Of a DNA stretch of 64,000 nt, positions 1,045 to 62,947 are shown one piece after another; positions within the stretch are counted from its first letter, which is position 1; the number at the start of each line of letters is the position of its first letter. This DNA is from Sipunculus nudus (taxonomy: Eukaryota > Annelida > Sipuncula > Golfingiida > Sipunculidae). The notes under the pieces are model-generated. The model was not told the DNA's origin, did not search any database, and saw only the letters and a list, made by a program, of their open reading frames with translations. Made by a program: the position numbers and the translations under genes. The stretch covers positions 24,796,008 through 24,860,007 of the forward strand of contig CM049313.1 of NCBI GenBank assembly GCA_026874595.1. The letters run 5' to 3'.

Positions 1045-1170
1045 AGATGACCGAGCGCCCATAGACATATATCTTAAATATCCTTTGATTGGAACATGCC
1101 TCAGAAGCTATGTTGGATTTTTGCGACCTTATACTAATGGGCTCAGAGATTAGCGTAAAGAGGGTATTAC

Positions 1171-1231: not shown

Positions 1232-4200
1232 CTACAGGGCCATTTAGAGTAAGTAAAAATTATGAAAAGACATGTAAAGCAATACTTACAACAACTCCGT
1301 CGGTAACAGGTGGACAAAATAGATCTAGCATAATATTCATAGCCAACCTGAAAGAAAATGTAAATACTCAGCATAAAGGAGTGACATTACCTTCACATTT
1401 ATCTTTTCATTTGACTAACGACAACCTTCTAAAACCAATCAACTAAAGGCAAAAACAATGATAATAATGAGAGAAAAAAATAAAATACTAACCATGTTGG
1501 CCATGCTACCAAAATCTTTTGTCACAGAATAACCGATTATCATGAGAATCCGTCCAGGTATTGCACTGATATACCTGCTAGCAAGCACTTGCGAAAACGT
1601 ATGAAGTCCGTACTGCTTATTGTACACATATACTAATATATTATAACTAAAAACGTGATATGTACATCACATTTGTTGCACCTCTTATCAGTTCATCCGA
1701 ATAAGCACATTCCGTGATAATATATGTAATGTGAAAAAAAATAACAGTGCAACAATCCTTACCGTTCTTCTCAGAATCTATATTTTGATAATCAGCCCAT
1801 AATGGTGTATACATTTGATGAAAACTCGCAGTTGTGCTAAATCCTCAGTCAATATATATTCCATTCATTTTGAGTTTACAAAAAATGTGGGTTATGATGA
1901 CTTCAGATGATAACAATACTGATTTTATAACAACATTCATCATTAAATATATTTAAAATTTTGAAAGACAAAATAGTTCAAACTCGTTTACTGACCAGTA
2001 GAGCGTAAACAGGATGCCAATTATGTTGGCAGCGATGTTCTTCTTCATGTTGACACAGGCCAGCATCGGGTAGAAGGCCACAGCGACCATGAGCATGTTC
2101 AACATGTTCACAAAACCTGGCAAATAACAATTGTACAAGATTCAGTAACATCAGGTAGAAGGCCACAACGGTCATCTGGATATTATTAACAGTATTTGGT
2201 AACCATCGATCATTACATTTTACAAGCAAATGATGAAATCATTTATATTGCAACAAGTGAAATGTAAAGATGCATAAAATACAACTGCTATTGTCAATAA
2301 TTCATATCAATCTAATTACTATAAGGAACAGTTACCCTTTACATGAGCTACAGTTATATTTTCTACCTCGAGAGGAATTGTTGTGAACAAATTCACCCGC
2401 ATGTTACTGAGTACCAAAAAACAAAAAAATCCTGACATGAACCACCTGATTGTGGGATCCTTTTTACTGTTTGAACCTCCTCGCTTGAAAAAAATGGGAG
2501 GTTTATGACTTTCAGGCATGCATACATAACTAAAATGGCTTTTCTCCTTTTCTACCTAGACTGCAGGTGCAACGCTTAATGGCACCACCTTTTAGTTGTG
2601 TAGCACACGCGTTCGCTTGCGCGTTTGGAAATTGTGCGTCCATTGTGCGCAACACTGTTTCATCATGTGGACTACCTGAAGGTACGCCATAAAAATCTCG
2701 AGACACATACACACACGAACCCGAATGAACGCATACTCTCCTGGTGGAGGCAATAAACCCGTAAAATTCGGTGCTCATGGCCCAAACGATTCCTGTTATG
2801 TTAGTTACATAACCGAATGACAGGTATAACATTATGCATAATACAATATGCATGTTGTTACGGAACCTAATATAAACAGATCACGTATGCGTGATGAACA
2901 CAAATTTTGTAATGGAGATAAAAAAAAATCAGATTCTGTAACACTAGGCAGTGTGAAATGTCTAGGGGTATGAATAAAGAAGTCAGTGGTTTTTTGTTAA
3001 CAAATAACTATAATTTATTCTTAAAACAACCCTAACATTACAGTACACTAAATCAATACAACTATACAGTAAAACAGCGGTATAACAACAAATCAATACA
3101 ATCGCACAGAAAAATAAACAATGTGCACAGTACCTGGATACCAACACCGTCACAACGATAAGTTCTTTAAATGTATACTCTCGGAGAATGACAGTCCCAT
3201 GTAAAGCTCTTGTAACAATCCAGAAAGTAAACTGAAGTCCAAAATAAAAGCTATAATTGCCGCACTGGTCGGATAAGGTCCTAGAAACTGACACACGCTT
3301 TTGCGTCCGCTAGAAATCTTCTCTGCTGCTCTCTCCCTCGGCTCTAAAACACAGCTCCTTTATACTTAATCACCTCAAGCCGAGAAGCTTCCACTCTAGA
3401 ACATTCGAAGAATAATTCATTTTACACGCTAAGCACGCGTCACAGGAATCATCTAGAAAAACATCGCCGTGCCTCTACACACCGCGGTGTACTCGTTAGC
3501 TCTCCCCAAGCTAGCATGACAACAAGAGTTCAACCAGTACGGATTAAACCGAAAATGTAACAAGCGGCCAGGCAAGAAAGTCCCACAACACGAGCCAAGC
3601 CCGTGTCACACAACAAAAAGAGCACCTGTAACAATGTATACACACAAGTGAAATCATCAATATCAACTAATCAAGGTTTGGTATAAAACATTTAATAATT
3701 CATCACAACATAATTATCATTTGTCTAAGGAATTGTTATTCATGATATCAAATTGTAAGAGTAATATTTTCTAACTGGAAAAAAGTGGAAAATAGATCAA
3801 CACAGGTGAATCCACCTGCAGCCTACATACAAATGCTAGTCACAAATAAACTTTACTCTATAATTATCAGCTAATATTTAAAGCCGTTCCTGGGATATTT
3901 ATTAACAGAAATCAGATTAGTATACTACATTTGTATAGCACTATAGTTTCTGTGTTTTAAAATATGGTTATATTGTTACTGTTTTATTATCTGAAGATTT
4001 TGGCGTCGATTATGATATTTAAAAAAAAGATTGATAATAATATTTCTGAGACAGAAAGAAAAAACACTACATGTGTAGTGAAATCAATCGCCTCACAACC
4101 CAGGGAAAGTTCAACCGATTTTGTTTAAACATTGCAGGCTAATAGTCACAAAGGTGTAGATAAGGCACATAATTAAAAACTCAGATGTCATATATATTAC

Positions 4201-7200
4201 AACAAATGAAATTAAAGTGTCCCTAAAACTGCCATTTGAATAAAACAACAAAATACTTGCTCAGCAGCCTTGAACATTAAGAAGAGTGCTCAGTATTAGT
4301 TTTGGCTCTGTGGCTCGCAGATTTTAGTTCACTGATCTAATTACTGTTTCAATGGTGATTTTTCAAGAAAATTCATGGATTTTAATTTTAAATATTCCAG
4401 GTCTAACGGTTACAACTTGTGCCATGTTTACAGACAGGCAGCGGGAATACTGAGTAGACAGGCCACGGAAGAAGAACAATCGGCAAAGCTGAGGTAACTG
4501 AGCTAAATCTAATTGACTTAGATAATCAAGTTAACCTTTGTACTCACTAGACACCCAGCTAAATTTTTCGCCCCAATATTCTTGTTGTTTCAGTGTGACA
4601 GGGACTGGATCGTACACCTTCTGTCCTAGGAACATTTTCAACGCTTGATACGCCAAAAGCACAAAAACAAAAGAATACGCCCATATTCTCTCTCGGCCAT
4701 CAATGAAGTTGACAGGACTACAATGAAACATATCAAATTTATTCATAACTTTGGTACATAGGACAGATTTGTACATATATACAAATATTGATATCACTGT
4801 TGTATAATTATATATTAATATTACTCTTGTTAGCAGGTAAGCTATCGAAAGCTCTACATTTAAACTTACATACACATATGTTCATGACATTCATAAGAAA
4901 CGCTTAAATGTTCATGCAGTCTAGATCCATATACTAAACATTGATATAAAAACACACTTTTGGATCTGAACATGACATGCAACCCAGGATCTCTATAGTT
5001 AAGCCTGGTGATGGTGTCATTTTAAGGAAAGTGATGTAGGGCTAAATCTGTTGTTTTATCTTAAGATATTTCTTTGTCGTCTTAAAGTGACAGTCTTCAT
5101 ACTCACATGACGACACCCGGGCGACGGAAACAAAGGTTTGGCCAGAGCGACTTTCTCTGTTTCATGAAACTAAGTACGATTAGGAAGAACAGCTGAAAAG
5201 AGATGAAACTATTAGTGCAAAAGAATGAATAAACATTTTATTTCTTGTTTGTCAATGGGCGTATTTGCTAATGACCAGTGGCGTCAATTTTTCTTCCAGG
5301 TAGGCGGGATGACTTTGTATATTTAAATACACACATATATATATATGCCTTTTTCAGCGTCTCTGAGTGACATATATTGAGTATATATATATACATGTAT
5401 ATATTTTATATGATTTTATATATATATATATTTAATCATATTTCAAATAATTATAATATTGAAATAGAAAATAAGTTATTTTGTAATTCAAAGCAAAGTT
5501 TAGATATAAATTTTTTTAGTAAATGAATCCAAATTCTTTAATATATATTTATTAATATATTTCATTGGCAATATTATAATATTATTCTCTGAAAGGGGGG
5601 GGATGATTACATTGGCCACCCCTCCTTGCCAAAAAATGTGGGGGTATATATACCCCCATCCCCCCTATATTGACGCCCCTGCTAATGACGTCACTTCTTT
5701 TAATCAATTTTACATCCATGACAATTATTGGTAAATCATGTGATTTAAGCAAAGGTACATTATCAATATTACTTACGGCAGCTGGCAAGCTAAACAGCAA
5801 GAATTCATTATCAAGAGACAGGGTTTGATCACAAAGTTGTTCAGTGCCCATTGAAGCAGAGGGTGAAACTGTCGTGTAGACCATACTGAAATAATAGAAT
5901 GGTCAATGACATTATTGACGGAAGAAGTTGATTGTAGTTTCAAAAAAATTCAAAGACTTATTCGTGAAATTCAGGAAACAGACGCCATAGTGTTTCGCTG
6001 ATTCAAGGTCTTCAGCAGACTTGGTACTCTGTGCATGTAATCTCAGTGTTATACGTGTCGGGCAGAATCTTAACAATATATATCCTTGTTCCTCCAGTGG
6101 AGTTCGCCGGGTATCTGCAAGAAGCAGTGCGTTGTTTGGATTCTGAAGCAGGAGGTTTTTAAATTACTAACAGCTTCACATTGCATGTCCATTACCTTAA
6201 TCTAATCTCGATATACGGTGGCATTTGCATGTCTATGACAAGGAACTTCTGTGAGGTAACCACGAATTCTCCCAATATAACACACCTAGTTGTATACTTA
6301 AATAGGAAATCCTTGTGTTATGAACATTCGCACACAGTGATAAACAATGGGACAACGAAAAAATGGTGCTGGAAAGTGTCGGTTACAAGCTCGGATGCAG
6401 CTCGCCATACTTCATGTTTAATATAAAACGAAAAAAATGTGGCTTCCGATATTGAAGAAAACCGGGCATAGTTTCCTCCCTTTGCCATTACAATGATTAA
6501 CATACAAATTGTTTTTCATTAGGTGAACAGTTTGCCCGTCGTCCAGTGGTGGGGCACAGGGGTCAAAGCCGGGACAGCGTGGGTTCGAATTTCAATCCGA
6601 GGCGTTGAGACTTTTTTCACGGTCGGCCCTCGCCCAGGGTAAGCGCTCTGCAGGCTTAATGGGGCGACTGTTCCCAACAGTCGTGTTTCACTCACAAACG
6701 AGTGCGCCTTTCGGGGGTCCCTCGGTGTTATGACCAAACAGTGGGGTCATCTATAATATCCGCAGAAACGGTACACCGAGCCTGGGTAACACCAGGATAA
6801 TCGCATGTAAGCACGTGTCACGTTATCCGAAACCGGAATTGAATTCTACAATGTTCATAGTACGTAGTTACGCAAGCATTAAATGAATTTAGGCGGGTGC
6901 CTCCGCAAGGTTTTAATCAGTACTCTTAATTCACAACGAATTTCCAACTGGGTTTTCCCCTACATTTTGTTCATGGAATTTTTTTTAATACTGAAACTGA
7001 CCACTCAATTTTTATGGACTACAGTTACCTGTGGATGTAATTAAACACAGCTGCTCCAGTGGTGGCATTTGATATCAACTCAAGTTCAGTTGTGTTGAAG
7101 GCAGACGTAACCCAGTCCTTGACATCTGAAGAAAGGTCAGCAAATCCCTGCAGCTCCCGCTCAAAGTAACTCAACCGGAAGGTGTTGTTCCATGTGTCAA

Positions 7201-7264
7201 AGTCATCCGGTAGGTGGCGGAAAAATTCAGTAAGGTTCTTAGCCATGATGAGCCCGTGAATGGA
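1171..7264 (-). CDS. STRA6-like: STRA6-like receptor gene A, N-terminal half (multi-exon, partial)
   Basis: Multipass membrane protein related to vertebrate STRA6, the plasma-membrane receptor that takes up retinol from retinol-binding protein; the ligand in invertebrates is not established. Seven to nine exons are visible: 7029-7264, 5777-5885, 5107-5192, 4548-4717, 1996-2116, 1763-1836, 1493-1587, 1290-1347 and possibly 1171-1231. With these boundaries the splice phases are mutually consistent. Diagnostic stretches are KQRKSLWPNLCFRRPGVV followed by PVNFIDGRERIW, matching human STRA6 just after its first membrane helix, and FYPMLACVNMKKNIAANIIG, matching the helix with the YYPLAAC motif. 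The N-terminus has no evident signal peptide and holds several N-x-S/T sites (NLT, NNT, NTT, NAT), fitting an extracellular N-terminus. The C-terminal half lies beyond base 1. Introns host an LTR, a MITE and a SINE. Confidence 0.85.
1290..1347 (-). CDS. STRA6-like: Gene A exon 8 (cytosolic loop)
   Basis: Canonical TTTCTTTCAG acceptor and GTAAGT donor. It encodes VGYEYYARSILSTCYRRSC, resembling the human SSYSEEYLRNLLCRK segment. Phase 0 at entry follows exon 7; one base is left over at exit. Confidence 0.75.
1493..1587 (-). CDS. STRA6-like: Gene A exon 7 (helix)
   Basis: Donor GTTAGT after AACATG is clear. The frame reads LASRYISAIPGRILMIIGYS and ends KDFGSMANM, a hydrophobic segment at the place of the human YYSLLASLPLLLGLGF helix. 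The acceptor at 1588 (CGCAAG) is phase-compatible with exon 6 but weak; CAATAAGCAG at about 1618 is an alternative that would need a different upstream phase. Confidence 0.6.
1763..1836 (-). CDS. STRA6-like: Gene A exon 6, candidate (short loop exon)
   Basis: Strong donor GTAAGG after GAGAAGAACG and acceptor GATTTAG. The one open frame reads TTASFHQMYTPLWADYQNID and is in phase with exon 5 if the GTCAGT donor is used. The position corresponds to the short variable loop in human STRA6 between the AHLGVQVW helix and the next helix. There is no clear residue conservation, so this is a phase- and position-based call. Confidence 0.55.
1996..2116 (-). CDS. STRA6-like: Gene A exon 5 (helix with FYPMLAC motif)
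   Basis: Acceptor ATTTGCCAG at 2117. It encodes FVNMLNMLMVAVAFYPMLAC, then VNMKKNIAANIIGILFTLY, matching the human LFYYAALYYPLAAC region. I chose donor GTCAGT (after TACTG), which keeps phase with the next candidate exon; GTAAAC four bases further on is an alternative donor (exon start 1992). A decayed copy of part of this exon lies in the intron immediately upstream (about 2137-2195). Confidence 0.85.
2137..2195 (-). pseudogene. Decayed partial copy of gene A exon 5
   Basis: In the intron just upstream of the exon 5 acceptor, the minus strand reads VNNIQMTVVAFYLML where exon 5 reads VNMLNMLMVAVAFYPML. The block GTGGCCTTCTACC is identical in both, with close similarity for about 10 bases on each side. 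An AG (ATCCAG) precedes the copied part. It looks like an old partial duplication of the exon start. Confidence 0.6.
2937..3633 (-). mobile_element. Probable solo LTR in a gene A intron
   Basis: On the minus strand the block begins TGTTACAGG and ends GTGTTACA (TG...CA). It has a TATA-type box (GTATAAAGGAGC, about 3345-3356) and a polyadenylation signal (AATAAA, about 3012-3017) about 75 bp before the 3' end. This is the U3-R-U5 order of an LTR, in the same sense as gene A. There is no internal region or second LTR. The flanking 5-mers (gattc and atgta) do not match, so a target duplication is not confirmed. Confidence 0.55.
3634..4547. other. Gene A intron, no further feature seen
   Basis: AT-rich intronic sequence between exon 4 and the solo LTR. 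I see no exon, tandem repeat or recognisable transposon in it. Confidence 0.6.
4548..4717 (-). CDS. STRA6-like: Gene A exon 4 (PVNFIDG motif and next helix)
   Basis: Acceptor CATTGTAG, donor GTGAGT. It encodes PVNFIDGRERIWAYSFVFVL and continues through LLAYQALKMFLG, aligning with human PVDFLAGDR plus the following helix. It then has a polar loop (QKVYDPVPVTLKQQEYWGEK). It ends with one leftover base (A) completed by GT of the next exon to Ser. Confidence 0.92.
5107..5192 (-). CDS. STRA6-like: Gene A exon 3 (helix 1 and conserved LWP motif)
   Basis: Acceptor CTTTTCAG, donor GTGAGT. It encodes LFFLIVLSFMKQRKSLWPN and then LCFRRPGVV. The LWPxxxxxRPG pattern right after helix 1 is the strongest STRA6-family signature in gene A (human: LWPDCVRGRPG). 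The exon ends in phase 2 (AT), joining a T to give Ile. Confidence 0.92.
5276..5681. mobile_element. hAT-type MITE with 8-bp target duplication
   Basis: A 406-bp element between gene A exons 2 and 3. The ends are CAGTGGCGTCAAT and, inverted, CAGGGGCGTCAAT. It is flanked on both sides by the identical 8-mer CTAATGAC (5268-5275 and 5682-5689). CAG[T/G]GGCG termini and 8-bp duplications are the signature of the hAT superfamily. The interior is AT-rich with TA runs (about 5330-5435) and no coding capacity. Near its right end is a perfect 20-nt palindrome (5639-5658, five G, TATATATA core, five C). Confidence 0.88.
5777..5885 (-). CDS. STRA6-like: Gene A exon 2 (end of ectodomain, start of helix 1)
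   Basis: Acceptor TTATTTCAG at 5886, donor GTAAGT ending GCTGCC at 5777. It encodes MVYTTVSPSASMGTEQLCDQ and ends FLLFSLPAA, the beginning of the first transmembrane helix, which continues directly into the next exon in phase 0. Confidence 0.8.
6530..6755 (+). mobile_element. tRNA-derived SINE, candidate
   Basis: Between gene A exons 1 and 2. An A-box-like CGTCCAGTGGTGGGGC near 6540 and a B-box GGTTCGAATTTC near 6582-6593 are spaced as in a tRNA-type RNA polymerase III promoter. A GC-richer body follows that differs from the AT-rich surroundings. No poly-A tail or target duplication was delimited, so the ends are approximate. Confidence 0.5.
7029..7264 (-). CDS. STRA6-like: Gene A exon 1 of those seen (extracellular N-terminus)
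   Basis: Acceptor AACAG at 7265-7269 (minus strand) and donor GTAACT after CCACAG. The likely start is the ATG at 7244-7246, giving MAKNLTEFFRHLPDDFDTWN onward. The 18 nt between acceptor and ATG are open in the same frame (SIHGLI), so an upstream coding exon is also possible. The segment carries four potential N-glycosylation sites and no hydrophobic helix, as expected for the extracellular N-terminus. The exon ends in phase 2 (AG), completed by the T of the next exon. It has little sequence identity to vertebrate STRA6, whose N-terminus is variable; assignment rests on phase and position. Confidence 0.7.
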
Positions 7265-19159: not shown

Positions 19160-21263
19160 TCTACAGGACACTAAATGACAATGTTTTGAAGATAACAGGC
19201 TACAGAGCACTAGATGATAGTGTTTTGTATATTAAAGGCTACAGGACATTAGATAACAGTGTGTTGTATATTGCAGGTTACAGGGCACTAGATGATAGTG
19301 TTTTGTATAATACAGGCTACAGAACACTAGATGATAGTGTTTTGTATAATACAGGCTACAGGAATGTAAATGACAGTGTGTAGTATATTACAGGTTACAG
19401 GACACTATATGATAGTGTTTTCTATAATACAGGCTACAGAACACTAAATTATAATGTTTTGTATAATACAGGCTACAGGACAGTAGATGACAGTGTTTGT
19501 ACAATATAGGCTACAGGACACTAGATGTCAATGTCTAGTATATTACAGGTTACAGGACACTAGATGACAGTGTTTTGTATAATACAGGCTACAGGACAAT
19601 AGATGATAATGTGTTGTATATTACAGGCTACAGGAAAGTAGATGACAGTATGTTGTATAATACAGGCTACAGGACAATAGATGATAATGTGTTGTATATT
19701 ACAGGTTACAGGACACTAGATGACAGTGTTTTGTATAATACAGGCTACAGGACAATAGATGATAATGTGTTGTATATTACAGGCTACAGGACACTAGATG
19801 ACAGTGTTTTGTATATTACAGGTTACAGGACACTAGATGACAGTGTTTTGTAAATAAAAGGCTACAGGACACTAGGTGACAGTGTGTTGTATATTACAGG
19901 TTACAGGACACTAGATGACAGTAGTTTGGATATAACAGGCTACAGGACAGTAGTTCACAGTGTTTCGAATTTACAGACTACAGGACACTAGATGACGAGG
20001 TGTGGTGAATAACAGGCTACAGGACCCTGGATGTCAGTGTTCTGTACATCACATGTTACTACAGGACAGTAGATGACAGTGCTTTGTATAATACAGACTA
20101 CAGGATATTAGATGACAGTGTGTTGAATATTACAGGCTACAGGACACTTGATGACAGTGTTTTGTATATTACAGGCTTCAGGACACTAGATGACAGTGTT
20201 TGTACAATACAGGCTACAGGAAACTAGATGACATTGTGTTGTATGTTACAGGTTACAGGACATTAGATGATAGTGTTTTGTTTATTACAGGTTACAGGAC
20301 ACTAGATGACAGTGTGATGTATAATACAGGGTACAGAACACTAGATGATAGTGTTTTATATAATACAGGCTACAGGGCACTAGATGACAGTGTGTTGTAT
20401 AATACAGGCTACAGGACACTAGATGACAGTGTGTTGTATATTACAGGCTACAGGACAGTAGATGACAGTGTGTTGAATATTACAGGCTACAGGACACTAG
20501 ATGACAGTGTGTTGTATATTACAGGCTACAGGACAGTAGATGACAGTGTGTTGTATAATACAGGGTACAGGACACTAGATGACAGTGTGTTGTACATTAC
20601 AGGCTACAGGGCACTAGATGACAGTGTGTTGTATATCACAGGTTACAGGACACTAGATAAGAGTGTGTTGTATATTACAGGCTACAGGACACTAGATGAC
20701 AGTGTTTGTACAATACAGGCTACAGGAAACTAGATGACAGTGTTGTATAATACAGACTACAGGACACTATATGACAGTGTTTTGTAAATTACAGGTTACA
20801 GGACACTAGGTGACAGTGTTTTGTAAATAAAAGGCTAAAGGACACCAGGTGACAGGTTGTTGTATATTACAGGACACAGGGCACAAGATGACAAGTTGTG
20901 TAGTTTTCCCTGTAGAACTACTGCAGGACAATAGATGACAATGTTTTGTATATAACAGGCTACATAACACTAGATGATAGTTTTTTTTTGTATAATACAG
21001 GCTACAGAACACTAGATGACACTGTTTTGTATAATACAGGCTACAGGACACAAGATGATAGTGTGTTGAATATTACAGGCCACAGGACACGTGATGACAG
21101 TGTTTTGTATATAACAGGCTACATAACACCAGATGATAGTGTTTTGTATAATACAGGCCTCTGGAAATTGGATGACAGTGTGTTGTATATTACAGGTAAC
21201 AGGACACTAGATAAAAGTGTATTTGTATATTACAGGTTACAGGACAGTAGAGGACAGTGTGTG

Positions 21264-50737: not shown

Positions 50738-50827
50738 TCAGTTTTCTGATGTTATTATTTTTGAGAATGGAGTGAGAGGAAAGAAAAGTGCCGCCCCTGT
50801 TGTTCCTGCCAGCTCCACCATGGCGTC
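50738..50827 (-). CDS. STRA6-like: Gene B terminal exon
   Basis: Acceptor TTTTTTCCACAG; 29 codons (DAMVELAGTTGAALFFPLTP, FSKIITSEN) and TGA. Phase 0 follows the preceding exon. The tail is not conserved with vertebrates. Confidence 0.85.
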   Translation of the reverse strand, partial: DAMVELAGTTGAALFFPLTPFSKIITSEN

Positions 50828-53800
50828 CTGTGGAAAAAAATGGGCAACACGTATGACAAAACGAATTGGGTGGCTCTGAAGGCATGGATAGCTATGAACG
50901 CGTGCTTTATTAAAAATCGGCACAGGTCAGTCATATTTAAACTAAATCATAAAACGTGTATTCTGTGTGGTTTAACGTACCCAGTACTGGATTCCAAGGG
51001 TAATTTTTCATTATTCTGGATCTGAGGTAATCTCACCACAATCGTTAACATATATCAAAGTATAGTCTGCCGTTATCTTTACTGTGTACCTGGGTATATG
51101 CTTTACCCTTATTTTTGCTGAGAGTATGAAATAATATTCTATAAGCGTTATCTTGTGTCAATGGTTGTGTAACATTACGTACATATCCAGGGCGGGCTGA
51201 CGGTAAGCAGACTGCTGTAATGCTGAAGGTGACGTACCGTTAGTTCAGAGTTTTTCTTCTTTGACTTGTTGAATGCCTCCCTGGCCAACCTCTCGTACAC
51301 CAGACCTCTGTTCCTGGACATGGTGACGGCTTTCCACCACTTCATCCTGACGGCCGGGTTCATCATCCGTCTAGTCTTACCGTCACCGTTCATCATCACT
51401 ATAACAATAATAAGCAGTTCATCACCCGCCTGGTCTTACCGTCACCGTTGATCATCACTATAACATTATAAACTGTTCATCATCCGTCCATTCTTACCGT
51501 AACCATTCATTACCGCTATAACATTAATAAACAGTTCATCATCCGTCTGGTCTTACCGTCACAGTTCATCACCACTATAACATTAATAAACAGTTCATGA
51601 TCCGCCTGGTCTTACCGTCATCGTTTATCACCACCCATACATTAATAAACCGTTCATCATCCGTCTGTCTTTGGGCCAGTGGTGTGGGGGGTCTAAAGCC
51701 TGGTTGAGTCTAAAAAAAAAAACGCTTGGTGGCTACAGTCGTCGGGGGTGGATCTAGGATTTAAGAAAAGGAGGGGTCCTACCCAGAAGACTAATGGCAA
51801 AACCTTAAAAAAGAGGTCCCGAGGTACGGAAAAGGGGGTGGGCGGGTTCATGTCACAAATCTGGTCTGAAATCCTTAAAATGGTTGCGGCGGTTGAAAGA
51901 GGGGATCCGGAGCCCCTGGCAGCGCCCCCCCCCCCCCCCCCCCGGATGCGCTTCTAGTCAAGTGGACAATGGGCTAACCTCTTTGATTACGCTCCTTGGA
52001 CTTGTAGTATGTCTCCCACATGACGCTTACAAAGGCCTTGAGGACGGGATGGTTGTGGTATACCTCAACTGTCAGCATCCCAAGGTACGCCCGGAAACCT
52101 GAATTTATAGACAGATTATTCTTCTAATCGCTGTGCTAGTCAGAAACCTACCACTTCAGACATAGGGGATATATCGTTTACAGTTTAGTATGTTCCCACT
52201 GTTGTTAACGTATAAACTATTAATTGTGTTTAGCTAAACCAGCAAAACGTAGGGAAGACTACTACCAATTCAGTTAAAGTAGAAATAAAATTATATAATT
52301 TATAATAAATGTCTAATTTCACTTGCGGGACAATTACAGTATAGAAATTCACGGGGTGATTGTGTGCGATGAGCAAGACACTAGATATTTTATTTTTCCT
52401 AGCAATTCACATACTGGACCAGGTATGTTATAAAAAATGCAAAATTTTTGTTAAAAGAGCTCACCTGAGTCAAATCGCTCGAAACCACGCATCATGAGAT
52501 TACAATCTAGACGTCCAAGAAGTAAAACCCCAAACACCACAGACATGAGAATCCGCTTCAGACAGGAAAAGAGGCCCAGAATAATATTAAACAACATCAG
52601 CAGGTAGGAGACCACGTGGAAAACCCTCCTGTAAAATGTGAAAGGAACTGAGATCAAGAATAATATTAAACAACATCAGCAGGTGGCAGACCACGTGGAA
52701 AATCCTCCTGTAAAATGTGAAAGGAACTGAGATCAAGAATAATATTAAACAACATCAGCAGGTGGCAGACCACGTGGAAAATCCTCCTGTAAAATGTGAA
52801 AGGAACTGAGATCAAGAATAATATTAAACAACATCAGCAGGTGGCAGACCACGTGGAAAATCCTCCTGTAAAATGTGAAAAGAACTGAGATCAAAAATAA
52901 TATTAAACAACATCAGCAGGTGGCAGACCACGTGGAAAATCCTCCTGTAAAATGTAAAAGGAACTGAGATCAAGAATAATATTAAACAACATCAGCAGAT
53001 GGCAGAACACGTGGAAAATCCTCCTGTAAAATGTGAATGGAACTGCGATCGAGAAAAATAATATTAAACAACATCAGCAGGTGGCACACCATGTGGAAAA
53101 TCCTCCTGTAAAATGTGAAAGGAACTGAGGTCAAGAATAATATTAAACAACATCAGCAGGTGGCAGACCACGTGGAAAATCCTCCTGTAAAATGTAAAAG
53201 GAATTGGGATCAAGAATAATATTAAACAACATCAGCAGGTGGCAGACCACGTGGAAAATCCTCCTGTAAAATGTAAAAGGAACTGAGATCAAGAATAATA
53301 TTAAACAACATCAGCAGATGGCAGACCACGTGGAAAATCCTCCTGTAAAATGTAAAAGGAACTGAGATCAAGAATAATATTAAACAACATCAGCAGGTGG
53401 CAGACCACGTGGAAAATCCTCCTGTAAAATGTAAAAGGAACTGGGATCAAGAATAATATTAAACAACATCAGCAGATGGCAGACCACGTGGAAAATCCTC
53501 CTGTAAAATGTGAATGGAACTGCGATCGAGAAAAATAATATTAAACAACATCAGCAGGTGGCAGACCACGTGGAAAATCCTCCTGTAAAATGTGAAAGGA
53601 ACTGAGGTCAAGAATAATATTAAACAACACCAGCAGGTGGGAGACCACTTGGAAAACCCTCCTGTAAAATGTAAAAGGAACTGGGATCAAGAATAATATT
53701 AAACAACATCAGCAGATGGAAGACTATTTGCATTCCATGTTCAGATATTCTATAACAGGGCATGTGTGAAAAGCTTCACTTAATTATCCCTAAATGTTAA

Positions 53801-56800
53801 CCCACGTTTTGAATGTTTAAATTAAATGAAAAATATAAATAACACAGTGCTGCAAATTGAGCACAAAAAAAACAATTTTTCGTATACTGAAAATATATAA
53901 TGGTCTGGTATAAAAGATGGATACAAAAAGCAGCTCACAGGTGCATTGAAAAGATTGTTGAGAGTCCATAAGTGACATACACGACTGGAAGGAATAATCG
54001 TCTGTCGTGACCTACCTGTTGTTTAAGGCCATGTATTTTCCTCTCCCCTGACAGAAGAACACCCTGGCTATAATCAGCTGAGCAAAATATATACCGAGAC
54101 TGACTACCAAGGTTGGCCTAGGAAACAGAATATGTTATCTGATAAAATGTAACTGTCAAATTATTTTAAAACTAAATTTGGATATTGTTTGCCAATTTAT
54201 ATTCTTCAAATTTCTTGCATTGTACTTGTATTGCAAATAAAATTACTGAATTCGGCATAAATACATTTTAGTACGAGTGATACAATTATACAAATATAAG
54301 TTTTTTACATATGTTCTGTCAGCTCGTACATTACTGGCAGCTCTCAATTTCTACGATATACTGGTATATGTCTTAAGTTACAATAGCTTTAACATTTTAT
54401 TCAGTGAATGATTAAATTCTGTTTGAATAAGATTTAGTTGTATAACCATTTGAAATGCCCATCAACTGCCTATTTTACTTTTTTAAATATACCTTTTAAA
54501 TTGATTAGAATCAACTAAACTCTATACATGGTTTAAGTTTAAATAGTATTCAACTTTTGTTAATAAAATGATTGGCAAATTAATCGAATCTAAGCATCAA
54601 ATATAATTCACAGCCAAAATAAGGAAGTATGTGTGTCATTTGTCAGAGGCTTGCATATTGTGAGAGAGCTTCATCTAGTATCATTCATTATGATGAGACA
54701 GCGAATTGCTATATTTATGTCTGTTACATGAAATTGCCATATTTAAATCTGTTAAATGGAGTAAACCCATGCACTGAAAACTTACCATAATCTCTTAATC
54801 TGCGTGATAGCAAAAGTCGAATATCCGTCTCTCAGCGGAAGAATAATGAGAATCGTCAACACAAAAATAATTAATACAGCCACGGCCAGAAAAATGATAT
54901 AGCCTGGAGGGAGAAAAGAAAAAATTATTTTAATATTTTATTTAACAATGTAATGGATGTATGCCATTTACTGTGATAAGCGGTAGGTGCTGAAGGTATA
55001 CCCATAGGACATCCTAGACTGTTTTCTTAAATAAAAATACATTGAAGGTTCTATGAAGAACCCTACACATTGGTTCCACTAAGAACATTTTAAGGTTCCC
55101 CACTCAGTCCACTGTGAAGAACCGTAGAGGGTTCTTTTCTGATCCTCCAAAAAGAACCCCGCTTGAAGGTTCTAGCTCGAACCTTAAAAGGTTCCCCATT
55201 CAGTCCACTGTGAAGAACCCTTTTGGGTCCTAGTTGGAACCCTTTTTTCTAAGAGTGTAGGTGCCGCAGGGTTATGTTTTTTATTTCAGACACGGATGCC
55301 CAATTCGACTATCATTCTGTATATATAAAATATATAAAATGTGGGCTCTCTTGAACAGAACGTAACAACAGTTTAATTGCTGAGTTTCTGCTACCCAACA
55401 CTCAGACTCATCTATAGCAGTTAGTTAAGGAATTGTTTTTAAATCATTTTCGATTAATGAAAGACAACATTAATTGATTATTACATTAAACTTTTGTAGT
55501 ACATGAAAATAAAGAATATTCATGCTCTCACGCGGCAAGTTCTCGTAACGTTGCCATGATTAATAAACACATTCTTCTACAGTAAACTGTGGCTTGCCGC
55601 AGTTGACCGTATATAGGCCCCGTTCGCAGGCACTCGACATATAAACAAACCTTGTGGGCGATAATAAAAGCATTACAGAGCCCCTCCCGTCCTTGCTCTC
55701 CAAACAGTTCTCAACTCTAATAAAACTTGTTCTTTTCCTTACTTTGAGTTGCTTTTTAGTTGGTTTATGCAGTTACCTCATTAACGGAACACATTTTTAT
55801 GACACGGCTTCTTGGTCTCCGTTCCCTCGAATTACTGAAGAGCTAAAATTTCATCCGAGGGAACGGAGGCCAAGAAGCCGAGTTATAAGTATGTATTTAT
55901 TTAACTTTACGTAGGGGTAAACAATTGTTATTAGTGCTAAGATCTGTTTTTAATGATAGGTCCATGGCCTGTTGGTCGTACTGTCTTTTGAATGAGGATG
56001 AAGGTATTCATATGATAAGAATGATATATTATTTTTAAGCCTTCTGGATTTCAGTTTTTATATGCACGGGATAGGAATAATCAAGAAGTCATAACGTGTC
56101 GTTCAGATATTAGAGCGAATTTCTGAGGTCCTATAATGAGATTTTACCAATAATGCCATGAGGCAACGGCGGGGTTCGTACAGGGATAAGAACGGTTTGT
56201 ATAGCAAGAACAGGAGGGGCTCTGTACTCCTTCTATTATCGCACACAGGGTCTGTTTATGTTTCGGGATCCTGTTTTCTACGTTCACCAACCACTGTGTC
56301 ACGGCAGCGTCACGGTAACCATGTCCGGCCTTGTTTTTCTTACGGTATCGTATGACAATTGGCCACAAGCCGGGGTGACAAGAAGATTTGCCGTGGCTAA
56401 GCAACAAGAGTTTGACACCCTAAAACCTTTTTTTTCATCAAGCCATGAGCTGTACTTTTAGGGGCACCGTTCTCTTCCGTTTGTTTTGAATATTAACTCG
56501 TCATTCTCGTCCTCTACGTTGTCACACGGTAAAGGCCACGTCCTATTAAGTCCTCCCACGACCTTCAAGAACTTTGTGAACAGTAGACAGAACGTGGTCA
56601 ATGAGACCTTCGCAAGGGAGATGGGGAGCTGTCGGTTTTGAGGATTTAAGATTTTCTGCCATGCATTTTCTGTTCAATAGAACAACGGTTATCTTAATCG
56701 ACCGGGAGGGGAACCAACCTAAGGGGAGAACGAAACAAAGGGCTCCGTCTAGCAATTAGAAACTAGACTTGGCCCTCGTTGGTCATACACAGAGGAGCCC

Positions 56801-59800
56801 CAATCTAGCAATTCCACAATTTGCCGGCATTTTAGCAACTTTGCATTTCTCTGAAGCCTCCGGTAGATTGACCTGCGGCACAGGTCACGTTCAGAACGAA
56901 CTTCATGGTCGTGGTAAACCGTAAAGAGAACGTGGTAAGCGTCGGGTGCTAATCAGTGTACTATCTTCGCTGTGATATAATCAGAATAAAATTGTTTTGG
57001 AATTCTTTGCATACGAATACTGCATACCTAACCCTTTGAGATAATTTTCTAAACCAGAATAAACTAATTTCTTCAATCATCAACGAACACGACCAGTCAC
57101 TGATAAATTCCGTTGATTACCATAACACTTCTACTCACCATAAAGGATATATGCAATCTGATAACCGGAATACCGGAAAGTGGAAGCCTGAAAAAAATAA
57201 ACACGTGGTAACGGCCGTTAACATTTATAATGTATAATTGTAATGAACGAGGAAATTAAGAATAAGACACAATAGCAATATTTCGCATAATGGACTTGCC
57301 CTATTACTACAGTGCCTCATACTTACGCTTTATCAAAAGTGAACAGTCTAACATGTCACGTCGCCTTGTGTATATATCTAACAGTAAAAATCGGTTACTC
57401 TTTCACAAACACAGCCACGGTGGAATGCAAGTGTTCCTGTCTTGCTGACAGTAACCTACCACAGATGGTGGATATATATCACGCTGTGCGAGTCAGTACC
57501 CTACCACTTCACCCATGGGGATTTATCATGCTGTGCGAGACAGTAACCTACCACTTCAGACACGGGGAATATATCCCGCTGTGCGAGTCAGTAACCTACC
57601 ACTTCAGACACGGGGGATATATCACGCTGTGCGAGTCAGTAACCTACCACTTCAGACATGGGGGATATATCACGCTGTGCGAGTCAGTAACCTACCACTT
57701 CAGACACGGGGGATATATCATGCTGTGTGAGTCAGTAACCTACCACTTCAGACATAGGGGATATATCACGCTGTGCAAGTCAGTAACCTACCACTTCAGA
57801 CATGGGGGACATATCACGCTGTGCGAGTCAGTAACCTACCACTTCAGACATGGGGGATATATCACGCTGTGTGAGCCAGTAACCTACCACTTCAGACACG
57901 GGGGATATATCACGCTGTGTGAGTCAGTAACCTACCACTTCAGACATGGGGGATATATCACGCTGTGCGAGTCAGTAACCTACTACTTCAGACATGGGGG
58001 ATATATCACGCTGTGTGAGTCAGTAACCTACCACTTCAGACATGGGGGACATATCACGCTGTGCAAGTCAGTAACCTACCACTTCAGACATGGGGATATA
58101 TCACGCTGTGTGAGCCAGTAACCTACCAATTCAGACACGGGGGATATATCACGCTGTGCGAGTCAGTAACCTACCACTTCAGACATGGGGGATATATCAC
58201 GCTGTGCGAGTCAGTAACCTACCACTTCAGACATGGGGGACATATCACGCTGTGCGAGTCAGTAACCTACCACTTCAGACATGGGGGATATATCACGCTG
58301 TGTGAGCCAGTAACCTACCTAACCTACCTCTTCAGACATGGGGGATATATCACGCTGTTCGAGTCAGTAACCTACCTCTTCAGACATGGGGGATATATCA
58401 CGCTGTGCGAGTCAGTAACCTACCACTTCAGACATGGGGGACATATCACTTCAGACATGGGGGACATATCACGCTGTGCGAGTCAGTAACCTACCACTTC
58501 AGACATGAGGGATATATCACGCTGTGTGAGTCAGTAACCTACCACTTCAGACATGGGGGATATATCACGCTGTGTGAGTCAGTAACCTACCACTTCAGAC
58601 ATGGGGGATATATCACGCTGTGCGAGTCAGTAACCTACCACTTCAGACATGGGGGACATATCACTTCAGACATGGGGGACATATCACGCTGTGCGAGTCA
58701 GTAACCTACCACTTCAGACATGGGGGATATATCACGCTGTGTGAGTCAGTAACCTACCACTTCAGACATGGGGGATATATCACGCTGTGTGAGTCAGTAA
58801 CCTACCACTTCAGACATGGGGGATATATCACGCTGTGTGAGTCAGTAACCTACCACTTCAGACATGGGGGATATATCACGCTGTGCGAGTCAGTAACCCC
58901 CCCTTTCAGACATGGGGGACATATCATGCTGTGCGAGTCAGTAACCTACCACCTCAGACATGGGGGACATATCACGCTGTGCGAGTCAGTAACCTGCCAC
59001 TTCAGACATGGGGGATATATCACGCTGTGCGAGTCAGTAACCTACCACTTCAGACATGGGGGATATATCACGCTGTGCGAGTCAGTAACCTACCACAGAT
59101 GGTGGATATATATCACGCTGTGCGAGTCAGTACCCTACCACTTCACCCATGGGGATTTATCATGCTGTGCGAGACAGTAACCTACCACTTCAGACACGGG
59201 GAATATATCCCGCTGTGCGAGTCAGTAACCTACCACTTCAGACACGGGGGATATATCACGCTGTGCGAGTCAGTAACCTACCACTTCAGACATGGGGGAT
59301 ATATCACGCTGTGCGAGTCAGTAACCTACCACTTCAGACACGGGGGATATATCACGCTGTGTGAGTCAGTAACCTACCACTTCAGACATAGGGGATATAT
59401 CACGCTGTGCAAGTCAGTAACCTACCACTTCAGACATGGGGGACATATCACGCTGTGCGAGTCAGTAACCTACCACTTCAGACATGGGGGATATATCACG
59501 CTGTGTGAGCCAGTAACCCACCACTTCAGACACGGGGGATATATCACGCTGTGTGAGTCAGTAACCTACCACTTCAGACATGGGGGATATATCACGCTGT
59601 GCGAGTCAGTAACCTACTACTTCAGACATGGGGGATATATCACGCTGTGTGAGTCAGTAACCTACCACTTCAGACATGGGGGACATATCACGCTGTGCAA
59701 GTCAGTAACCTACCACTTCAGACATGGGGATATATCACGCTGTGTGAGCCAGTAACCTACCAATTCAGACACGGGGGATATATCACGCTGTGCGAGTCAG

Positions 59801-62800
59801 TAACCTACCACTTCAGACATGGGGGATATATCACGCTGTACGAGTCAGTAACCTACCACTTCAGACATGGGGGACATATCACGCTGTGCGAGTCAGTAAC
59901 CTACCACTTCAGACATGGGGGATATATCACGCTGTGTGAGCCAGTAACCTACCTAACCTACCTCTTCAGACATGGGGGATATATCACGCTGTTCGAGTCA
60001 GTAACCTACCTCTTCAGACATGGGGGATATATCACGCTGTGCGAGTCAGTAACCTACCACTTCAGACATGGGGGACATATCACTTCAGACATTGGGGACA
60101 TATCACGCTGTGCGAGTCAGTAACCTACCACTTCAGACATGAGGGATATATCACGCTGTGTGAGTCATTAACCTACCACTTCAGACATGGGGGATATATC
60201 ACGCTGTGTGAGTCAGTAACCTACCACTTCAGACATGGGGGATATATCACGCTGTGCGAGTCAGTAACCTACCACTTCAGACATGGGGGACATATCACTT
60301 CAGACATGGGGGACATATCACGCTGTGCGAGTCAGTAACCTACCACTTCAGACATGGGGGATATATCACGCTGTGTGAGTCAGTAACCTACCACTTCAGA
60401 CATGGGGGATATATCACGCTGTGTGAGTCAGTAACCTACCACTTCAGACATGGGGGATATATCACGCTGTGTGAGTCAGTAACCTACCACTTCAGACATG
60501 GGGGATATATCACGCTGTGCGAGTCAGTAACCCCCCCTTTCAGACATGGGGGACATATCATGCTGTGCGAGTCAGTAACCTACCACCTCAGACATGGGGG
60601 ACATATCACGCTGTGCGAGTCAGTAACCTGCCACTTCAGACATGGGGGATATATCACGCTGTGCGAGTCAGTAACCTGCCACTTCAGACATGGGGATATA
60701 TCACGCTCTGTGAGTCAGTAACCTACCACTTCAGACATGGGGGATATACCACGCTGTGTGATTCAGTAACCTACCACTTCAGACATGGGGGACATATCAC
60801 GCTGTGCGAGTCAGTAACCTACCACTTCAGACATGGGGGACATATCACGCTGTGCGAGTCAGTAACCTACCACTTCAGACATGGGGGATATATCACGCTG
60901 TGCGAGTCAGTAACCTACCACTTCAGACATGGGGGATATATCACGCTGTGTGAGTCAGTAACCTACCACTTCAGACATGGGGGATATATCACGCTGTGTG
61001 AGTCAGTAATCTACCACTTCAGACATGGGGGACATATCACGCTGTGCGAGTCAGTAACCTACCACTTCAGACATGGGGGACATATCACGCTGTGCGAGTC
61101 AGTAACCTACCACCTCAGACATGGGGGACATATCACGCTGTGCGAGTCAGTAACCTACCACTTCAGACATGGGGGATATATCACGCTGTGCGAGTCAGTA
61201 ACCTACCACTTCAGACATGGGGGACATATCACGCTGTGCGAGTCAGTAACCTACCACTTCAGACATGGGGGACATATCACGCTGTGCGAGTCAGTAACCT
61301 ACCACTTCAGACATGGGGGACATATCACGCTGTGCGAGTCAGTAACCTACCACTTCAGACATGGGGGACATATCACGCTGTGCGAGTCAGTAACCTACCA
61401 CTTCAGACATGGGGGATATATCACGCTGTGTGAGTCAGTAACCTACCACTTCAGACATGGGGGATATATCACGCTGTGCGAGTGATAACCTACCACTTCA
61501 GACATGGGGGACATATCACGCTGTGCGAGTCAGTAACCTACCACTTCAGACATGGGGGATATATCACGCTGTGTGAGTCAGTAACCTACCACTTCAGACA
61601 TGGGGGATATATCACGCTGTGTGATTCAGTAACCTACCACTTCAGACATGGGGGACATATCACGCTGTGCGAGTCAGTAACCTACCACTTCAGACATGGG
61701 GGATATATCACGCTGTGTGAGTCAGTAATCTATCACTTCAGACATGGGGGATATATCACGCTGTGTGAGTCAGTAACCTACTACTTCAGACATGGGGGAT
61801 ATATCACGCTGTGTGAGTCAGTAACCTACCACTTCAGACATGGGGGATATATCACGCTGTGTGAGTCAGTAACCTACCACTTCAGACATGGGGGATATAT
61901 CACGCTGTGCGAGTCAGTAACCTACCACTTCAGACATGGGGGACATATCACGCTGTGCGAGTCAGTAACCTACCACTTCAGACACGGGGGACATATCACG
62001 CTGTGCGAGTCAGTAACCTACCACTTCAGACATGGGGGACATATCACGCTGTGTGAGTCAGTAACCTACCACTTCAGACACGGGGGACATATCACGCTGT
62101 GCGAGTCAGTAACCTACCACTTCAGACATGGGGGATATATCACGCTGTGTGAGTCAGTAACCTACTACTTCAGACATGGGGGATATATCACGCTGTGTAA
62201 TTCAGTAACCTACCACTTCAGACATGGGGGATATATCACGCTGCATGTGCCATCCTCTGTTTCCCTTCAACAACCACAGCATGTGCTTCCTACGGAGGAA
62301 TTACAAAAATTACATTTAACGAAACCATCTCTTGAAATTCATAAGTATGCAATTCTCTTTTATTAAAGAGAACATTTTGATCCATAGTCCTCAATCAGGA
62401 TGCATCACTGAGGAAAACCGACATACCGACATACACTAAACAGATTGCAGACCGTCCATTGAACCTCGCGTATGTTAATCACAAAATAATCAACAAAATA
62501 ATAAAATATGAATCAAGTATGAGATGCCAAAAAAGCACGTACAAAAAGGAAACAACTATACTTTTCCCAAAGGTATCATAATACAATTTCAAATTCTGTT
62601 TTTCTCAATTAGGTAATATATGTACAGATTGTAAATAATAACAAATATATGTCCATATATTTATGTTTCCCATCGCACATTACCAACCAGAACGACTGGA
62701 GGGTATATACATTCCCTGACTTTTGACCTTAATTCGCCTTAAATCAAATATGCAGCTTTATGGAAGATAATGAGCAATATATATGTACATATACTCTTAT

Positions 62801-62947
62801 TCTCTTTGTCAAAATATTTGGAAACTCTATGGGTTTTATATTGTTTGCAACATGAATTGTGTAGTACTTACCTGTAGCATAAAATCATATGAATCATGAA
62901 GACACACTGTAGCGCGAACGACAGGTAGTTACATACCACAAACTCTT
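50738..62947 (-). CDS. STRA6-like: STRA6-like receptor gene B, C-terminal half (multi-exon, partial)
   Basis: Second STRA6-family gene, same strand as gene A and upstream of it, so the two are a tandem pair. Nine exons: 62872-62947, 62214-62289, 57139-57187, 54786-54903, 54016-54117, 52465-52628, 51979-52098, 51238-51398, 50738-50827. All have GT/AG borders, all phases agree, and the last seven total 804 nt, exactly 268 codons with the stop. Diagnostic matches to human STRA6 are FRYSGYQIAYILYG, IKRLWPTLVVSLG, NNRRVFHVV, GMLTVEVYHNHPVLKAF and GLVYERLAREAFNKSKKK. The N-terminal half lies right of 62947, probably outside the window. Its introns contain three minisatellites derived from its own splice junctions. 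Confidence 0.93.
51238..51398 (-). CDS. STRA6-like: Gene B exon (basic C-terminal segment)
   Basis: Acceptor TTGTTATAG, donor GTACGT. It begins MMNGDGKTRRMMNPAVRM and contains SRNRGLVYERLAREAFNKSK, corresponding to human [21 protein letters not shown], the calmodulin-binding C-terminal region of STRA6. The basic, amphipathic character is kept. The acceptor and exon start are repeated in the flanking 58-59-bp array. Confidence 0.88.
51359..51676 (-). repeat. 58-59-bp array of a 3' splice site plus exon start
   Basis: Five full units and a partial one, starting about 51359, 51418, 51476, 51535, 51594 and 51653. Read on the minus strand, each carries GTTATAG (the acceptor; changed in the unit at 51594), a TGATGAAC-like exon start and GACGGTAAGAC. 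The unit nearest the gene supplies the authentic acceptor and start of exon 51238-51398. Confidence 0.88.
51735..51958. mobile_element. hAT-like nonautonomous element, candidate
   Basis: GGGGGTGGATCTAGG at the left and, inverted, AGAAGCGCATCCGGGGG at the right resemble degraded hAT-type termini. It includes a C run at 51926-51942. No target duplication is recognisable, so the call is weak. Confidence 0.3.
51979..52098 (-). CDS. STRA6-like: Gene B exon (FRAYLGMLTVEVYHNHPVLK)
   Basis: Acceptor ATAAATTCAG, donor GTTAGC. It matches human YRNFLKIEVSQSHPAMTAF closely (EV, HP, AF conserved) and continues SVMWETYYKSKERNQR. An internal GTAAGC after KAF is a possible alternative donor but would not keep phase. 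Confidence 0.92.
52129..52174 (-). repeat. Isolated monomer of the 48-bp repeat in another intron
   Basis: About 46 bp matching the 57.4-62.2 kb array unit with about two mismatches, including the exon-tail part (CATGTCTGAAGTG type) and a GTAGGT donor, here followed by TTCTG. It sits in the intron upstream of exon 51979-52098, about 5.3 kb from the array. Confidence 0.88.
52465..52628 (-). CDS. STRA6-like: Gene B exon whose 5' end seeds the 79-bp array
   Basis: Acceptor ACATTTTACAG, donor GTGAGC. It encodes RVFHVVSYLLMLFNIILGLF, then SCLKRILMSVVFGVLLLGRL and DCNLMMRGFERFDS, matching human RRVLYAATFLLFPLNVLVG through the region before DPGYYTYRNFL. The first 51 nt are repeated 13 more times upstream. 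Confidence 0.93.
52578..53719 (-). repeat. 79-bp array of a 3' splice site plus exon start
   Basis: Fourteen acceptors (ACATTTTACAG then GAGG) spaced 79 bp, twice 82 bp; the plus-strand G of each lies at 52631, 52710, 52789, 52868, 52947, 53026, 53108, 53187, 53266, 53345, 53424, 53503, 53585 and 53664. Each unit is about 51 nt of exon 52465-52628 plus about 28 nt of the intron end with its pyrimidine tract. The lowest-coordinate copy is the authentic exon start. Confidence 0.95.
53720..54015. other. Intron remainder between array and upstream exon
   Basis: AT-rich intron; nothing recognised. Confidence 0.5.
54016..54117 (-). CDS. STRA6-like: Gene B exon (helix PTLVVSLGIYFAQ)
   Basis: Acceptor GTTTCCTAG, donor GTAGGT. 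It encodes PTLVVSLGIYFAQLIIARVF, then FCQGRGKYMALNN, matching human [21 protein letters not shown] and the following TNRRV. The downstream intron contains the 79-bp acceptor array. Confidence 0.92.
54118..54785. other. Gene B intron
   Basis: AT-rich intron with no recognisable element. Confidence 0.6.
54786..54903 (-). CDS. STRA6-like: Gene B exon (helix and re-entry to LWP)
   Basis: Acceptor CCCTCCAG, donor GTAAG. It encodes a strong transmembrane helix (YIIFLAVAVLIIFVLTILII), then LRDGYSTFAITQIKRLW, the last aligning with human FRSLESSW. It leaves TG, completed to Trp. Confidence 0.92.
54980..55272. mobile_element. GGTTCT/AGAACC-rich MITE-like element
   Basis: Many short inverted GGTTCT and AGAACC motifs and a direct repeat of TCAGTCCACTGTGAAGAACC (about 55103 and 55199). 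It ends in CTAAGAGTGTAG. A diverged 14-nt direct repeat, GTAGGTGCYGMAGG, lies on both sides (54983 and 55257), possibly a target duplication. Family not identified. Confidence 0.45.
55805..55880. other. 25-bp-stem hairpin
   Basis: CGGCTTCTTGGTCTCCGTTC and its continuation CCTCG (55805-55829) are complementary to 55856-55880 with a single T/G exception, around a 26-nt loop. It lies in an intron of gene B. Confidence 0.8.
55881..57138. other. Gene B intron, GC-richer unassigned block
   Basis: 56140-56960 is richer in GC than the surrounding intron, with recurrent CGTGGT and ACGTTC-type words. It could be a decayed transposon, but I recognise no coding motif or termini. Confidence 0.35.
57139..57187 (-). 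CDS. STRA6-like: Gene B exon (ASTFRYSGYQIAYILYG)
   Basis: A 49-nt exon with acceptor TTTTTTTCAG and donor GTGAGT. It matches the human CWMSFSAYQTAFICLG segment at the same place. Phase 0 in, one base (G) out. Confidence 0.9.
57449..60720. repeat. 1634-bp higher-order duplication in the 48-bp array
   Basis: Landmark variants recur 1634 bp apart: the CAGATGGTGG unit (57460, 59095), the CACCCATGGGGATTTATCATG region (57508, 59142) and AACCTACCTAACCTACC (58310, 59944). The period is 34 units plus 2 bp. Confidence 0.88.
57449..62243 (-). repeat. 48-bp array of an exon end plus 5' splice site, about 100 copies
   Basis: On the minus strand each unit is CAGCGTGATATATCCCCCAT, then GTCTGAAGTG, then GTAGGTTACTGACTCACA. 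The first 30 nt equal the end of exon 62214-62289 and the rest is its donor and intron start. The highest-coordinate copy is the real exon end. The period is 16 codons, so plus-strand frames such as VTYHFRHGGYITLCES repeats stay open; these are antisense artefacts. Confidence 0.96.
62214..62289 (-). CDS. STRA6-like: Gene B exon whose 3' end seeds the 48-bp array
   Basis: Acceptor CCTCCGTAG, donor GTG then GTAGGT. It encodes KHMLWLLKGNRGWHMQRD and then ISPMSEV, aligning with the human cytosolic loop (ALHRGAALDLSPLHRS). It enters with one base and exits in phase 0, as the next exon requires. Its last 30 nt and the adjoining intron bases are the unit of the neighbouring minisatellite. Confidence 0.88.
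62290..62871. other. Gene B intron
   Basis: AT-rich intron between two exons; no other feature. Confidence 0.6.
62872..62947 (-). CDS. STRA6-like: Gene B exon (helix, EFVVCNYLSF)
   Basis: Acceptor TATTTCAG, donor CTACAG then GTAAGT (near-consensus). It encodes EFVVCNYLSFALQCVFMIHM followed by ILCYR, matching the human [24 protein letters not shown] helix. It takes two bases from the previous exon and leaves AG. Confidence 0.9.

Follow-up and report, generated by a model that had tools for sequence, protein, structure and literature searches.

Minisatellite-like tandem duplications that cross a 5' or a 3' exon-intron border are described from amphioxus, where they are called mirages; the published accounts report units of about 10-160 bp, haplotypes that differ in copy number, homogenised copies, splice signals in many of the copies, and RT-PCR data that suggest normal splicing (PMC3087553, PMC3902484). 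The genes concerned are Adh3 and the globins BflGb6 and BflGb9 (PMC3087553), to which TnC and PGBD5 were added (PMC3902484). In human IFI6 (6-16), copies of a minisatellite at a splice donor act as several donors, as reported by Turri et al. 1995; splicing there draws on two downstream repeat units and yields several mRNAs (PMC4526556). Human segmental duplications are reported to contain internal tandem repeats at exon-intron boundaries, with units of 30 bp and 4 copies on average; for 66% of the changes in intron structure described there, a transcript that retains the repeat in the exon exists as well (PMC2812944).

We describe three arrays of this kind in one gene of Sipunculus nudus, gene B, which lies within a stretch of 64,000 nucleotides (C8:24796008-24860007) hereafter called the window. 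As in the mirages that the amphioxus reports describe, the gene B units span an exon-intron border, at a donor or an acceptor alike. Unlike the mirages in those accounts, the gene B arrays occur three in one gene and reach ~99 copies, and one of them, with a 59-bp unit, is common to four paralogues (four-fold distance ~1.2). Normal splicing of the amphioxus genes is suggested by RT-PCR; in gene B it is a prediction from the DNA sequence. The 48-bp array resembles the IFI6 minisatellite, as the latter is reported, in that its repeats sit at a splice donor and provide multiple donors. Like the human boundary repeats in their published description, the gene B arrays are variable, lie at exon borders and are able to alter intron structure in recent paralogues; the human repeats differ in their shortness. 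The first-pass annotation of this DNA knew of no named system of this kind and was wrong on this point, since both the mirages of amphioxus and the minisatellite of human IFI6 belong to this kind. Listings from the open-licence literature, a scope outside which most subscription papers lie, included no report of a structure named a mirage outside amphioxus, nor of three in one gene. This comparison suggests that mirages, a class of repeat that has a name but is little known, extend beyond amphioxus.

Gene B and its border-spanning arrays

Gene B is encoded on the minus strand and matches the PF14752 / RBP_receptor profile in two parts: exons e01-e11 over profile positions 13-270 (E 6.9e-34) and exons e12-e19 over positions 319-603 of 605 (E 2.5e-55). 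Its product also matches zebrafish STRA6 (5sy1; E 5.1e-25). By similarity over most of the length of PF14752, gene B is STRA6- or RBP receptor-like. With the 728-aa gene B model as query against 5.8 billion protein sequences, 7998 candidates were scored and no match reached E 0.001. A search for STRA6-like genes, from which matches containing stops were excluded, gave at least five genes among the matches listed. Gene A, also STRA6-like, adjoins gene B and shares its orientation; the first exons of A occupy window 1290-7237, and the remainder lies to the left of the window. Two more paralogues, P1 and P2, are located near 58.69 and 58.74 Mb of gene B's contig, where the matches listed also include a distant fifth paralogue at 66.105 Mb. 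All 19 of the 19 gene B query exons were recovered in A, P1 and P2, and e13 and e15 to e18 have equal lengths in the four genes (Table 1). The GT/AG sites and these equal lengths across four paralogues fix the splice sites concerned. The region of the probable last coding exon, e20, is also kept in P1 and P2.

The genome comprises 1.43 Gb in 153 contigs; that of amphioxus is much smaller. Between genes A and B lies a 39-bp satellite, with 54 copies at window 19161-21260 and 693 copies (27 kb) at window 22858-49840. At window 1-1060 there are broken open frames that, by eye, we take to resemble a retrotransposon reverse transcriptase. One gene B intron contains a 92-nt inverted repeat (window 55627-55718 and 56182-56273, 79% complementarity), possibly a small transposable element.

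Table 1. Exons and repeat arrays of gene B from e12 to e20, in window coordinates. A slash marks an exon-intron border here and in the text.
Feature	Position	Strand	Remarks
e12 (EEFVVCNYLSFALQ...MILCYR)	62872..62947	-	kept in 4 paralogues; acceptor TTTCAG, donor CAG/GTAAGT
e13	62214..62289	-	76 nt in four paralogues; donor GTG/GTAGGT
48-bp array, ~99 copies	57456..62243	-	TRF 57474-62243; most of intron e13-e14
e14 (ASTFRYSGYQIAYILY)	57139..57187	-	
e15	54786..54903	-	118 nt in four paralogues
e16	54016..54117	-	102 nt in four paralogues
79-bp array	52578..53724	-	TRF
e17	52465..52628	-	164 nt in four paralogues; zebrafish STRA6 5sy1 match
Stray copy of 48-bp unit	52129..52175	-	by eye; 30 nt upstream of e18 start
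e18	51979..52098	-	120 nt in four paralogues
59-bp array	51358..51671	-	TRF; homologous arrays in A, P1, P2
e19	51238..51398	-	3' end approximate; start = last, real 59-bp unit copy
e20, probable last coding exon (DAMVELAGTTGAALFFPLTPFSKIITSEN)	50738..50827	-	open frame, stop 50738-50740, acceptor CCACAG

The first-pass annotation had placed three unrelated units at three gene B junctions, one a donor and two acceptors, with each array extending into the intron. The TRF coordinates and the exon borders agree on both points; the donor is that of e13, the acceptors are those of e17 and e19, and each array lies on the intron side. Every one of the three units contains the border itself, so that it consists of an exon part and an intron part.

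The 48-bp array (99.3 copies, 88% matches by TRF) has as its unit the final 30 nt of e13 and the 18 nt of intron that start at the donor GTAGGT. The e13 donor sits in the first copy, and the end of the exon together with this donor is the seed of the array, which fills 4740 of the 5026 nt of the intron between e13 and e14 and contains 90 GTAGGT sites. Copies at an exact spacing of 48 bp (n=71) have a mean pairwise identity of 0.90. Within the array, 1634 bp are directly duplicated (57456-59089 and 59090-60723) at 99.4% identity, which indicates that its growth is partly recent. The stray copy of the 48-bp unit occupies a different gene B intron from the main array, and no such copy was recognisable at the corresponding place in A, P1 or P2.

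The 79-bp array has 14.4 copies (93% matches by TRF). In a full copy, 28 intron nt that close with TTTTACAG are followed by the first 51 nt of e17, and the e17 acceptor, TTTTACAG/GAGG (exon start 52628), sits in the last copy. This motif occurs 14 times in the array, once as the real site and 13 times as a decoy; each decoy departs from the real e17 start at 3-6 of 51 sites. The 59-bp array has 5.4 copies and 84% matches (TRF). Its full copy comprises an 18-nt intron stretch, with TTATAG at its end, and the first 41 nt of e19, and the e19 acceptor, GTTATAG/TG (exon start 51398), again sits in the last copy. Four full decoys are present in gene B, three of which retain TTATAG.

Order of exon and repeat, and age of the arrays

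The overlap of repeat and exon, and nothing more, would favour a recruitment of the exons from pre-existing satellite DNA, with repeats preceding exons. The paralogues point the other way. A, P1 and P2 each carry the e13 border once, and P1 and P2 do the same for the e17 border; these last two genes have the same exons without a 48- or a 79-bp array. The zebrafish STRA6 alignment continues through e13 and e17, ending at the start of e19, and inspection by eye of ~515 nt upstream of e17 in the fifth, distant paralogue revealed no repeat. We regard a repeats-first origin as extremely improbable. Because paralogues carry e13 and e17 as single copies, the 48- and 79-bp arrays derive from the exons, and by this comparison the exons preceded these two arrays. 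The order is restricted to them because the 59-bp array is present in all four paralogues, among which a single-copy relative was not found. The first-pass proposal of seeding at exon borders thus stands, and single-copy relatives give an exon-first order for two of the arrays (48 and 79 bp).

Searches with the units are in keeping with this order. A 30-base piece of the 48-bp unit has 90 sites genome-wide at up to 3 mismatches, 89 in the gene B array, a count that takes in the real exon copy, and a single site in e13 of P1; the stray copy, recognised by eye, is not among these matches. A dispersed or mobile origin of the unit was considered and rejected, as no match at this threshold lies beyond gene B and e13 of P1. 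A shuffle test of the unit covered the introns of A and P1. In the intron after e13 of P1, a 13-nt match was equalled by 7 of 300 shuffles; in the corresponding intron of gene A, the best match was no better than shuffles, 231 of 300 scoring as high. A 70-nt alignment had suggested that gene A holds the 48-bp unit twice; this was rejected because the intron part alone scores like those shuffles.

For the 79-bp unit, a DNA search gave 15 sites in the gene B array and a single site in either of P1 and P2, and further copies were not found in the introns of P1 and P2 (230 and 204 of 300 shuffles as high). Gene A has one clear degraded copy upstream of its real acceptor (score 34, 0/300 shuffles) and a second, marginal copy (7/300 shuffles as high). 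By eye, the degraded copy in A and the decoys in B have in common a base that is absent from the real exons, as well as a similar unit junction. These common features suggest that the first 79-bp duplication probably took place before the split of A and B.

Four-fold degenerate sites provide a scale for these events. With exons that have gapped alignments skipped, 77 of 240 sites differ between A and B (JC 0.42) and 34 of 238 between P1 and P2 (0.16); for either A or B against P1 or P2 the fraction is 0.59-0.62 (JC 1.17-1.34, near saturation). The 79-bp array survives in gene A as the degraded copy, across a distance of 0.42. The 59-bp array is found on both sides of the deepest of these comparisons, at a distance of ~1.2, with most copies 57-59 nt long and the same junction in all four genes. 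Its decoys in P1 and P2 pair by position (P1_1 with P2_2, P1_2 with P2_3). A tree of the 59-bp copies, built on about 60 sites and of modest support, separates the P-lineage copies from the A/B copies at 0.86, with the other nodes at 0.40-0.92. This pattern is most simply read as common descent with turnover; repeated birth with identical breakpoints is possible and less likely. The 59-bp array seems to have persisted across several duplications of the gene. At the e13 border, copy number ranges from 1 to ~99 among the paralogues. As read from the sequences of the four genes, the 59- and 79-bp arrays are old, the growth of the 48-bp array is recent, and copy numbers differ widely between paralogues.

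Decoy splice sites

Each array presents the splicing machinery with copies of a real site, and translation across these copies indicates what their use would yield. In the 48-bp array, splicing from a decoy donor would lead to a premature stop in 89 of 89 cases, and the first GTAGGT alone keeps the frame open. The decoy acceptors of the 79-bp array behave likewise (13/13), as do the decoy TTATAG sites of the 59-bp array (3/3), with the real site alone open in both. Gene B differs here from IFI6 as reported, since the use of decoy donors would give stops.

The arrays might have been selected as splice regulators, that is, as banks of decoys that tune exon inclusion or make nonsense transcripts. 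This reading, which the first-pass annotation had raised, would account for the intactness of 13/13 decoy acceptors in the 79-bp array and of 90 GTAGGT donors in the 48-bp array, and for the retention of the array at e19 across four paralogues; it also has a precedent in human IFI6, which is reported to employ minisatellite copies as donors (PMC4526556). However, the old 59-bp arrays speak against it. In these arrays of the four genes, the aligned AG is retained in 6 of 12 decoys versus 4 of 4 real copies, a loss that is expected from relaxed constraint, and the intact sites in the young arrays can be accounted for by recent expansion. The reading is further at odds with the stop that follows from every decoy tested and with the 1-to-~99 range of copy number at the e13 border. 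We consider selection for splice regulation unlikely. Given that old decoy sites decay and that each decoy tested gives a stop, the decoys look tolerated rather than functional. The suggestion in the first-pass annotation that intronic copies are tolerated fits these observations, since use of the exon-proximal site, as in the normal splicing that we infer, would splice the array out.

Border placement and the proposed origin

The first-pass annotation had argued that random minisatellite birth would rarely choose junctions three times, and this claim holds for gene B taken by itself. Three of its five arrays with at least 3 copies match a border versus 0.28 expected (P 0.0015), and among all 11 of its arrays the three matches compare with 0.43 expected (P 0.007), under a model in which each array's unit is placed uniformly over the gene, with P values uncorrected for the choice of gene B as a striking case. 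Such an excess would be produced by a border-specific mutational process, in which R-loops, pausing or transcription-coupled breaks near splice sites make borders hot spots of duplication. The same pattern in several amphioxus genes, as described (PMC3087553, PMC3902484), is consistent with such a process. Gene B also holds tandem arrays that are free of a border, and one of these is in accord with it as well: a 49-bp array common to A and B lies to the right of the window in gene B (~84338-84850), ~11 nt past the e07 donor by alignment and 42 nt by TRF. Its gene A counterpart (window coordinates -14091 to -13904) is about 40-50 nt from the e07 donor, and no match was found in P1 or P2.

Three observations weigh against a border-specific process. 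When the four paralogues are pooled and homologous arrays are counted once, P varies from 0.004 to 0.29 according to the filter, again uncorrected for the choice of gene; the e19 arrays of P1 and P2 were excluded from these tests as homologous to that of B, and in one test the 49-bp array of A was also excluded. The three host introns are short, measuring 286, 319 and 325 nt without decoys, which makes border inclusion more likely by chance; a new unit would include the border with probabilities of 0.28, 0.39 and 0.30, or ~0.03 jointly. Finally, myosin exons of the same genome show no sign of border enrichment over the intron interior. In this small sample of 32 exons out of 75 matches listed, mostly the best-scoring, with splice sites guessed from sequence, a local copy with a score of at least 18 occurs at 1 of 64 borders versus 33 of 1040 points in the intron interior, with one array contributing 20 of these; at score 24 the counts are 0 of 64 and 22 of 1040. 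A separate count of point-wise coverage at a score of at least 24 gives 6 of 144 borders versus 208 of 1600 interior points; taken at face value it speaks against enrichment at borders, but we give it no weight, as many of the interior points lie within the border-seeded arrays themselves. The argument from rarity for a border-specific cause is weak. We view such a process as doubtful.

The myosin sample also contains a border-spanning duplication of its own, a two-copy 56-bp repeat at an exon donor (positions 1110-1211 of C4:13957900-13959600, locus L046). Its copies read GAAAAGTCCAG/GTATGT and GAAAAGTCCAG/GTAGGT, and by these sequences a border-spanning duplication occurs in a second, independent gene. 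In a separate myosin gene (C2:44849337-44852248), four successive stretches match one and the same portion of the motor domain (profile positions ~109-153); these are possibly mutually exclusive exons.

Our analysis supports, with considerable confidence, the proposal that the three arrays are mirage-type minisatellites, each of which would have arisen from a tolerated border-spanning duplication and expanded later, with the exon copy as its anchor. In the manner that we infer for the first duplications, a short tandem duplication would by chance span an exon-intron border. Splicing would keep to the exon-proximal site, so the duplication would be tolerated and the extra copies would turn into intron. 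Copies may then multiply and shrink via unequal exchange, slippage or larger segmental duplication. The copy at the exon border, held by selection at the protein level, would serve as a permanent anchor for the array, and the copies other than the anchor would be free to expand, homogenise or decay. Counting against this proposal, the 14 intact acceptors of the 79-bp array and the 90 donors of the 48-bp array would fit a role in splicing too, with recent expansion an equally good account of them, the border matches in gene B exceed uniform placement (P 0.0015-0.007), and the support within the 59-bp tree is modest (0.40-0.92).

Gene B is thus one gene with three mirages in differing states: one young and huge, one intermediate, and one old and degraded. 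Its arrays are natural tests of how the spliceosome chooses one site among up to ~90 that are nearly identical. Comparison of the paralogues makes it testable how long an array lives and whether a coding anchor copy sustains it. We tentatively raise the idea, somewhat short of an even chance, that exon-anchored minisatellites form a long-lived class of repeats, in which a coding copy that does not decay renews the array again and again and lets it survive gene duplications, in contrast to ordinary minisatellites. Of these findings, the persistence of the array at e19 over so long a span most merits further work. If the idea is true, this 59-bp array would be a case of exon-anchored persistence, seen in four paralogues at a distance of about 1.2, and an exon border with an anchored array would be a lasting source of new introns.
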